From positions 62,001 through 126,000 of the forward strand of contig JACPDN010000004.1 in the NCBI GenBank assembly GCA_016183985.1: a stretch of DNA of 64,000 nucleotides. The letters are read 5' to 3'. The position numbers and the translations under genes were made by a program. This stretch comes from Pseudomonadota bacterium. GTDB lineage: Bacteria > Pseudomonadota > Alphaproteobacteria > Dongiales > Dongiaceae. Of this stretch, positions 50,042 through 52,850 are shown one piece after another (position 1 is the first letter of the stretch; the number at the start of each line of letters is the position of its first letter). Under the pieces are notes generated by a model. It made no database searches. It saw nothing but the letters and a program-made list of their open reading frames with translations, and had not been told where the DNA came from.

Positions 50042-50353
50042 TCACGTCAGCGCCTTCAGCCCTTTACGGTCGACCAGATTGAGCAGCTTCAGCCCCATGC
50101 GCGAGGGCGATTTCACATCCTGCTCCCAAGCCGTAACCGTTGCCTTGCTGACATTGAGATAGGCGGCGAAGACACCCTGGCTCGCTTTGTTGGCCTTGCG
50201 GATGCGCTTGATATCCGTTGCGGAGTAGTGCGGCACCGGCGGCAGGCACAGTGCGTCGAATCTCCGCATCGTCTCGATATCGATGAGGTCGGCGCGATGC
50301 AAATCGGCTGCGGATTCCAGGACTTCACTTAAGATTCGGCCCTTCTTAGCCAT
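50042..50353 (-). CDS. Antitoxin with helix-turn-helix (HigA-like)
   Basis: 103 residues starting M-A-K-K-G-R-I-L. The C-terminal Xre-type HTH reads I-K-R-I-R-K-A-N-K-A-S-Q-G-V-F-A-A-Y-L-N-V-S followed by K-A-T-V-T-A-W-E-Q-D, the HigA/YgiT-like pattern. It neutralises the toxin encoded just before it and represses the pair. The ATG overlaps the toxin stop by eight bases, so translation is coupled. The toxin-first order is the one seen in higBA-type modules. Confidence 0.88.
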   Translation of the reverse strand: MAKKGRILSEVLESAADLHRADLIDIETMRRFDALCLPPVPHYSATDIKRIRKANKASQGVFAAYLNVSKATVTAWEQDVKSPSRMGLKLLNLVDRKGLKALT

Positions 50354-50726
50354 CGCATGCAATCTCCAATAAGGCCCCAGCTGCAATCGCGCGTTCCAGG
50401 GCGGGATCGTCAAAGCCGGTATATTGTTCACCAAGCGCCATGAGCGCTGCTCGTTCCGTCTGGGTAATGTTGCCGCGTTCGCTCTTCGCGAAGCCGTAGA
50501 TGAAGAACAATCGTTCACCTTCTCGGTAGGCGATGATCGTCCTGAACCCATCACGTTTGCCGCCGCGCCGCCTGCCAATGCGCTTTTTCAACAGCGAGCC
50601 ACGCAAGCGCGCGTCGATCAATCCACGCCTCACCTCGTGGGCGGACTGGCACAACGCTGCGTCAGACAGGCCTTCTTTTTCTGCCCAGCGAGCAAACGTC
50701 CGGCTTTTCAAAACGCGCAGCGACAT
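50346..50726 (-). CDS. RelE/HigB-like toxin
   Basis: 126 residues. The family core appears as F-A-R-W-A-E-K-E-G-L-S-D, then L-R-G-S-L-L-K-K-R-I-G-R-R-R-G-G-K-R-D-G-F-R-T-I-I-A-Y and L-F-F-I-Y-G-F-A-K-S-E-R-G-N-I. The basic cluster and the F-I-Y-G-F-A-K-S-E strand match the type II toxins related to HigB-2/RelE, which cut mRNA on the ribosome. A -10-like TATTAT on the minus strand lies about 5 bases before the ATG region, inside a small dyad at 50730-50750. Confidence 0.85.
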   Translation of the reverse strand: MSLRVLKSRTFARWAEKEGLSDAALCQSAHEVRRGLIDARLRGSLLKKRIGRRRGGKRDGFRTIIAYREGERLFFIYGFAKSERGNITQTERAALMALGEQYTGFDDPALERAIAAGALLEIACDG

Positions 50727-50750: not shown

Positions 50751-50841
50751 ATTTCAATGACTGGTGGGATGCCCGATAATTAGCTTCGCCAATCATAAAA
50801 CAATTTATAGGCGTATCAACATTAAAGTTCCTATTTTGTTC

Positions 50842-50870
50842 TTGACTCTTTGCTAGGAATTCGCTACTAT
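50842..50870 (+). promoter_or_regulatory. Strong sigma-70-type promoter, plus strand
   Basis: TTGACT at 50842-50847 and TACTAT at 50865-50870 are separated by exactly 17 bases, in an AT-rich stretch that contrasts with the surroundings. Transcription would start near 50877 and enter the multi-hairpin region, 500 bases before the dihydropyrimidinase start. Confidence 0.6.
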
Positions 50871-50876
50871 CGAACT

Positions 50877-51175
50877 TGCGCGCATATCATCCGCAGAGTG
50901 GCCTGATCCGCTCATCTGCCATCGCTCGGCTGTCTCCGGCACAGGCTCGTGAAACCCACGGGCGCAGGCCGGCTTTATTGGTGTGGACGGCCTTCCCAAG
51001 ATTCCCGAAAGGCCGCCCGCGCCCGTTTCGGCTGGTCACGTCAGATCCGGCCCCCGCGACCGCACCGGGTGAAGCGGTTCTGCCTGGACGTTGGGCGGCC
51101 AAACACGTCTCCCGAACGGCGCATGGGATAAAGCGCCGTCCCCGACCGGATGGGTGAAAGCCGGTCACTGGAAGA
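50877..51175 (+). ncRNA. Candidate structured non-coding RNA or long structured leader
   Basis: About 300 bases after the promoter at 50842 with no credible gene but six successive stem-loops: (1) 50936-50972, two-part stem with GCTCGTG/CACGGGC; (2) 50988-51015, CGGCCTT/AAGGCCG; (3) 51059-51078, ACCGC/GCGGT; (4) 51087-51109, GACGT/ACGTC with inner TTGG/CCAA; (5) 51116-51139, ACGGCGC/GCGCCGT; (6) 51144-51166, GACCGG/CCGGTC. Loops 3, 5 and 6 are similar: ACCGGGTGAA, ATGGGATAAA, ATGGGTGAAAG. I match it to no known RNA family. It might be an independent RNA or the leader of the dihydropyrimidinase gene. High GC makes hairpins more frequent by chance, which limits confidence. Confidence 0.4.
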
Positions 51176-51241
51176 GGGGGAGAGAAAAGAAAGTCGGCAT
51201 GACGCGGCGCTTTTCACTGACACCAGTTTCCGGTAACATCC

Positions 51242-51257
51242 TTGACCGAATGATCAA
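51242..51257. promoter_or_regulatory. RutR-like operator upstream of dihydropyrimidinase
   Basis: TTGACCGAATGATCAA matches the RutR consensus TTGACCA-N2-TGGTCAA at 12 of 14 defined positions. It lies 133 bases before the dihydropyrimidinase start, in a gap without genes. A second box lies before the rutR gene at 63231. Confidence 0.6.
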
Positions 51258-51314
51258 AAAAGAACGCTGCGGGATGTCTGGGCCTTGAGTGTCGGCATCG
51301 ATGCGGCGCCATAG

Positions 51315-52850
<1,536 letters not shown>

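Follow-up and report, generated by a model that had tools for sequence, protein, structure and literature searches.

Type III antitoxin RNAs (ToxI, CptI, TenpI) are characterized, in the excerpted text of a published account, as repeat arrays that fold as H-type pseudoknots (PMC5086642), and an excerpt of a second account counts GOLLD, ROOL and OLE among long, highly structured bacterial RNAs (PMC12286853). Here, we describe an element in a 64,000-nucleotide window of a Dongia genome (GenBank contig JACPDN010000004.1, positions 62,001 to 126,000, forward strand), where an original prediction made from the sequence alone had noted a promoter leading into a gene-free run of hairpins. This element is a 3'-truncated copy of a large, structured RNA family with many copies in Dongia, which probably stands alone as a non-coding RNA, is induced by the SOS response and offers repeated pseudoknots to a partner. 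An array of H-type pseudoknot units in a non-coding RNA is common to the element and, as excerpted, to the type III antitoxins, but the units of the element differ in sequence, it carries a closing stem (P1), a bipartite hairpin (hp2) and a LexA box, and it is dispersed in many copies. The toxin gene and Rho-independent terminator expected downstream of a type III array were not found (in the window, an amidohydrolase gene and no terminator-like site follow the element, and Pfam was applied to the gene of the window only). We do not class the element as type III, because, as far as examined, it lacks identical repeats and is not followed by a terminator and a toxin gene, yet a type III pseudoknot antitoxin would be its nearest functional analogue. 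A search for the ToxN family matched none of five genomes, with its positive controls silent too. Length and structure liken the element to GOLLD, ROOL and OLE, as far as the excerpt describes them, but it has no Rfam match to these RNAs and possesses an SOS box and a pseudoknot array of variable number.

Sponge RNAs such as CsrB and RsmZ have many hairpins with GG-containing loops, and alpha transfer-messenger RNA (tmRNA) has paired ends enclosing several pseudoknots. The element shares the many hairpins and GG loops of the former, but its loops pair with linkers. A search for CsrA that was positive in E. coli, B. subtilis and Thermotoga found none in its own genome; of the RNA sponges that the original prediction had considered, one of the CsrB type was therefore rejected. 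Like alpha tmRNA, the element has paired ends around pseudoknots, but it fails the Rfam tmRNA models and its genome has a separate alpha_tmRNA on contig C13, so a tmRNA remnant was rejected as well. That the region fits no familiar RNA family was borne out as far as Rfam goes: at gathering score, Rfam 15 returned only a tRNA from the window, and relaxed scans of the region and seven other copies gave only sub-threshold hits, chiefly to microRNA models, plus narK and flavi_FSE. A literature search, mostly open-access and at the level of listings, yielded no description of this family, and the likewise mostly open-access listings on LexA- or SOS-controlled small RNAs showed neither an alphaproteobacterial family of non-coding RNAs under a LexA box nor such an RNA in Dongia. 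For Caulobacter crescentus, nine mitomycin-induced small RNAs have, according to an excerpted report, start sites with no SOS box nearby (PMC6237742); these RNAs are alphaproteobacterial and linked to damage, as the element putatively is, but the SOS box is found in the element only.

Comparison between genomes establishes the family and its copy number. We found 34 copies in five of seven Dongia genomes: 18 in the genome of the window, 10, 2 and 1 in relatives, and three divergent copies in G005. BLAST over 61 genomes recovered, within the genome of the window, a second copy at 99% identity, and only partial matches in others. A promoter-pattern search, whose reversed control was empty, found 12 copies in the genome of the window, five in G006, two in G003 and one in G002. 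A model of the promoter and 5' region built from 13 copies (R1) returned 18, 10, 2 and 1 strong copies (E at most 4.8e-8) over 17 genomes of the bacterial family; the window copy, itself among the 13 building sequences, scored 142.8 bits (E 2.5e-34). A promoter-free model built from 20 copies (R2) recovered the same 31 close copies in the 17 genomes and no further strong one, with L033, which is cut by a contig end, reaching only E 0.011. One divergent G005 copy came from a box-pattern search and two from weak R2 hits, one of these lacking a promoter. Five other weak R2 hits (in G012, G009 and G016, L272 in G005, and one in G006; E 0.005 to 0.05) were set aside as chance; four were inspected and all lacked the box, the G006 hit not being among them. 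Neither model gave a strong match in the 10 other genomes of the bacterial family outside Dongia. A class-wide search of 385 genomes gave three matches, all in Dongia, under stricter filters that make it weak evidence of absence, and an exact scan of 84,980 species genomes, with records of the own genome possibly excluded, gave three matching stretches, again all in Dongia. As far as searched, the family thus appears confined to Dongia. A phage origin was rejected: two viral-contig scans gave at least 127 loci, and in the 87 to which R1 was applied it matched short stretches only, none scoring above 22.9 bits. Twenty-three of the 31 close copies are readable to the 3' arm of P1, one by joining two contig ends with a 51-base overlap, and six run into contig ends (L033, L034, L036, L044, L089, L090). 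Full copies measure 184 to 516 nt, and L027, L042 and L088 retain both ends but are missing parts of the array.

A LexA-type box, GTTC-N7-GTTC, lies beside a sigma-70-type promoter in all 31 close copies, perfect in 23 and with one mismatch in eight. The second GTTC is invariant in all 31, of which 20 were originally found by a pattern requiring it (and TNGGAAT), and the mismatches all fall in the first GTTC; the seven-base spacer of the box differs even between otherwise near-identical copies. Two of the three divergent G005 copies also have the box. This arrangement of half-sites is given as the alphaproteobacterial LexA motif in the excerpted text of PMC3323433. In the genome of the window, other genes carry the box too, among them the likely lexA, where it lies some 150 nt ahead of the start and is oriented the other way round. 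LexA would, on this evidence, repress the element copies. At the promoter, 26 of the 31 close copies have TAGGAAT in the -35/-10 spacer region, and 14 have TTCCTA ahead of -35; a second regulator site is possible there.

The same type of LexA-box promoter also precedes protein genes at five Dongia loci (L099, L101, L102, L103 and, with the box one base off, L104) and at L108 in the genome of the window (C2:1870). By eye, the proteins behind these promoters share an N-terminal domain and vary at their C-termini; L101 and L103 are CdiA-CT RNase A-like (PF18431), three others have no Pfam match, and L108 looks frame-disrupted. These genes look like SOS-controlled polymorphic toxins. In another genus of the bacterial family (L100, G014), the protein encoded behind the same box and promoter matches the lytic transglycosylase domain SLT below threshold (19.4 bits, cut-off 21.3).

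Both P1 and hp2 covary between copies. Thirteen of the 18 pairs of P1 change on both sides among 18 distinct copies, the other five of the 23 full copies having identical arms. Its paired cells amount to 87.0%, compared to 74.9 ± 1.2 in shuffles, and its covariation score is 0.403, compared to 0.195 ± 0.018; none of 500 shuffles reached either value, and sliding the partner strand lowered the score to 0.088-0.178. The 3' arm of L096 was anchored by hand, and L091 and L096 were kept ungapped despite a one-base bulge in each, which lowers the score. A divergent G005 copy that was not used in defining P1 has a P1 of its own in other letters, 536 nt from arm to arm. Hairpin hp2 covaries less than P1, with seven cells changing on both sides, a count that no shuffle of 500 equaled. 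Compensatory changes, which the original prediction had proposed to look for, are thus found between copies in these two stems.

The units of the hairpin array have a common fold and no common sequence. Nine representative copies contain 97 local hairpins, a number that none of 60 dinucleotide shuffles reached (67.5 ± 4.0); their summed stem score is 1707, compared to 1145 ± 66, and minimum free energy (MFE) z-scores of ten intact copies range from -0.8 to -5.1 (20 shuffles each). When an upstream linker pairs with the loop of the next hairpin, the geometry is that of an H-type pseudoknot. Over 112 non-redundant units, pairing of the loop with its upstream linker scored 8.02, compared to 6.24 ± 0.33 for permuted linkers (0 of 2000), whereas the downstream linker scored 6.29 against 6.27 (P = 0.47). 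Permuting linkers within copies (nine representatives, 81 units) gave 8.27 against 6.74 ± 0.37 (0 of 3000) for the upstream linker and P = 0.38 for the downstream one. Upstream pairing was also detected in the 81 loops without GGG (P = 0.0002) and, out of sample, in G005 (P = 0.03, 14 units). Linker and loop partners change together (CCC with GGG, CGC with GCG, CCTG with CAGG, CCGC with GCGG, TCCT with AGGA and, by eye in L095, TCCA with TGGA). The first permutation test drew on 15 of the 23 full copies and the within-copy and hairpin-shuffle tests on nine, and both permutation tests left out units in the first 100 nt. A stem-only detector was used; plain MFE hairpin finding gave registers discordant between copies because it cannot model pseudoknots. 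These comparisons of sequence strongly support the formation of H-type pseudoknots by many of the array hairpins. Single units are provisional, since some of them fail to score, the copies are related to one another and the pairing method takes no account of competing folds. The recurring purine-rich loops that the original prediction had read as possible protein docking sites are a real feature; pairing with the C-rich upstream linker explains them best, with docking possible on top of it.

On the contig of the window, the element copy is the hairpin-rich stretch itself, with its promoter at 50842-50870 and a span from 50827 to 51169-51171. Its features, and the gene that follows it, are as follows.

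50827 to 50841, + strand: LexA (SOS) box GTTC-CTATTTT-GTTC, abutting -35 on the upstream side.
50842 to 50870, + strand: sigma-70-type promoter TTGACT-N17-TACTAT, 9 of 12 consensus matches.
50871 to 51171, + strand: 3'-truncated RNA element copy, 99% identical to a sister copy (contigs C5/C8) up to 51169-51171 and unrelated beyond.
50912 to 50929, + strand: 5' arm of closing stem P1, whose 3' arm is present in 23 close copies and absent here.
50936 to 50972, + strand: bipartite hairpin hp2, CCGGC..GCTCGTG..CACGGGC..GCCGG, with conserved internal loop.
50988 to 51015, + strand: hairpin CGGCCTTC/GAAAGGCCG.
51030 to 51052, + strand: array hairpin GGCTGG/CCGGCC, linker-loop pairing weak (CGT with ACG).
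51053 to 51079, + strand: candidate pseudoknot unit, stem GACCGC/GCGGTT at 51058-51079, linker CCCG with loop CGGG.
51087 to 51109, + strand: hairpin GACGT/ACGTC; register ambiguous, as automatic detection preferred an overlapping stem at 51091-51115 without linker pairing.
51110 to 51139, + strand: candidate pseudoknot unit, stem ACGGCGC/GCGCCGT at 51116-51139, linker TCCC with loop GGGA.
51137 to 51166, + strand: candidate pseudoknot unit, stem GACCGG/CCGGTC at 51144-51166, loop GGGTG; script partner CGTCC, alternative register CCC with GGG.
51390 to 52850, + strand: amidohydrolase gene downstream of and outside the element (PF01979, E 5.3e-28).

The promoter of the original prediction is present, and all the stems that it named can be read in the sequence (50936-50972, 50988-51015, 51058-51079, 51087-51109, 51116-51139, 51144-51166); good linker partners occur in the units with stems at 51058-51079, 51116-51139 and 51144-51166. 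Two 93-amino-acid open reading frames (ORFs) cross the region, one per strand, and neither matches Pfam. The prediction is supported in reading the region as RNA-like, structured and gene-free behind a promoter, but it had overlooked the LexA box, the copy number of 18 and the truncation, and the element begins at 50827, ahead of where the prediction started. The window copy is truncated or internally deleted, as its match to the sister copy stops at 51169-51171, and no 8-base piece of the expected 3' arm of P1 occurs within 51171-51700. Transcription would start near 50877 and give an RNA that has no P1 and might continue in the direction of the amidohydrolase gene at 51390.

In the reading that we favor, an intact member of the family combines a LexA box beside a sigma-70-type promoter with a predicted transcript of about 180-520 nt whose ends are paired in P1. 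The transcript also contains the bipartite hairpin, its internal loop conserved, and tandem hairpins that vary in number. Many of the latter are very probably H-type pseudoknots formed between a C-rich linker and the G-rich loop of the hairpin after it. As the most economical mechanism, DNA damage would most likely release LexA, so that many copies are transcribed at once and the cell is flooded with multivalent RNA, whose repeated pseudoknots would bind a protein, by titration or as a scaffold. A bolder version, which we consider possible but rather doubtful, is a new SOS-induced RNA class in which a P1-closed pseudoknot string of tunable length, present at 18 loci, acts in trans as a multivalent inhibitor or scaffold, for instance by neutralizing RNase-type proteins that the same type of LexA-controlled promoter would express on DNA damage. 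A damage-switched RNA of up to 18 copies whose modular pseudoknot array varies through gain and loss of units would constitute a new RNA class and raise the question of what the cell gains from a multivalent pseudoknot RNA in its SOS response.

Several observations weigh against the favored reading. We infer transcription of the copies from sequence and the protein-binding role of the pseudoknots from architecture alone, and the relatedness of the copies means that the permutation P values overstate independence. Weaker measures of covariation were less clear: further pair types in P1 numbered 26 against 21.9 in shuffles and were reached by 16 of 500, three hp2 pairs changed on both sides, a count reached by 33 of 500 shuffles, and further hp2 types were reached by 135 of 500. 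No copy was found in two of the seven Dongia genomes (G001 and G004), and no terminator-like site was found at the end of the window copy. Two close copies, that of the window and (by eye) L098, lack the 3' arm of P1, and the divergent G005 copy L281 lacks a promoter; some copies therefore decay. Lastly, taken singly, the window copy has no folding advantage over shuffled sequence (z = +0.57, with 71 of 100 shuffles folding at least as well), an outcome that the original prediction had regarded as refuting, and which did not extend to the family with its 97 hairpins against 67.5 ± 4.0. Covariation is evidence independent of folding energies, and the weak energy of the window copy therefore leaves the comparison as support. 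The caution that a GC-rich background produces accidental stems, for which the z-score of the window copy would speak, thus has next to no probability left, given the family of copies, the covariation of P1 and hp2 and the shuffle tests.

Could the hairpins matter as DNA, in a non-autonomous repeated element of the kind formed by miniature inverted-repeat transposable elements (MITEs) or repetitive extragenic palindromes (REPs), with the promoter merely carried along? The 18 copies, several of them nearly identical and some beside other intergenic repeats, and the contigs that end inside or just past copies would fit such an element. However, P1 covaries across hundreds of bases, none of the 31 close copies has lost the box, whereas its spacer is variable, some of the copies have kept their loci between species, and linker-loop pairing is directional, present upstream and absent downstream, all of which makes this explanation unlikely. 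We regard as similarly improbable a type-III-like RNA antitoxin acting in trans, each pseudoknot inhibiting an endoribonuclease, perhaps an SOS-controlled RNase-domain protein of the same genomes. Type III antitoxin arrays do fold as H-type pseudoknots, as excerpted (PMC5086642), and two genes with the same box encode CdiA-CT RNase A-like proteins (PF18431), but the units here are not near-identical repeats, the best downstream ORFs differ from copy to copy and often lie on the opposite strand, and the window copy ends without a detectable terminator. To our knowledge, a closing stem like P1 is not a feature of ToxI.

The original prediction had also offered a regulatory leader, which would act in cis on the downstream gene, in the window the amidohydrolase gene at 51390..52850, which we take to be dihydropyrimidinase-like. 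This gene does lie about 220 nt downstream on the same strand, and an orthologous pair of copies is placed upstream of ilvD, again on the same strand. Across 20 of the 23 full copies, however, the best downstream ORF (by a heuristic based on GC content at third codon positions, GC3) is on the opposite strand in 12 and on the same strand in eight, and the genes differ; the region upstream of the G006 counterpart, as far as the contig reaches, has no element. Because flanking genes and strands vary between copies, a leader role is not supported, and we consider it very unlikely. Some copies are orthologous at shared loci by eye: next to a CorC-like gene (four species), an MFS gene or mutS, upstream of ilvD, and behind an upstream gene that the loci have in common, these gene names being presumptive. 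In the ilvD-side pair, nine of 11 gaps are not multiples of three, which argues against coding.

The surroundings of the copies show further features. Several recent copies (flanks of L027, L033, L041, L042 and L088-L090) are preceded by an intergenic palindromic repeat (GGATCCCCGGGACTTCGCCCGGGGATGACGG), and another (...GCGCCAAGTGACGG) comes after some of these copies. Contigs stop inside or just beyond element copies in G000 (C3, C4, C5, C8, C9, C10, C13, C15) and G006 (C5, C6), and the element seems to be one cause of assembly breaks in these two genomes. Among the divergent copies, L250 (G005:C2:643305) has four tandem GGCCCGGCGGCATTTGCCGCCAT-type units between promoter and P1 arm, and L278 has one. 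In the window, the element is directly preceded on the - strand (50042-50726) by a RelE-family toxin gene (PF06296) and an adjoining HTH_3 protein, which together resemble a toxin-antitoxin pair.
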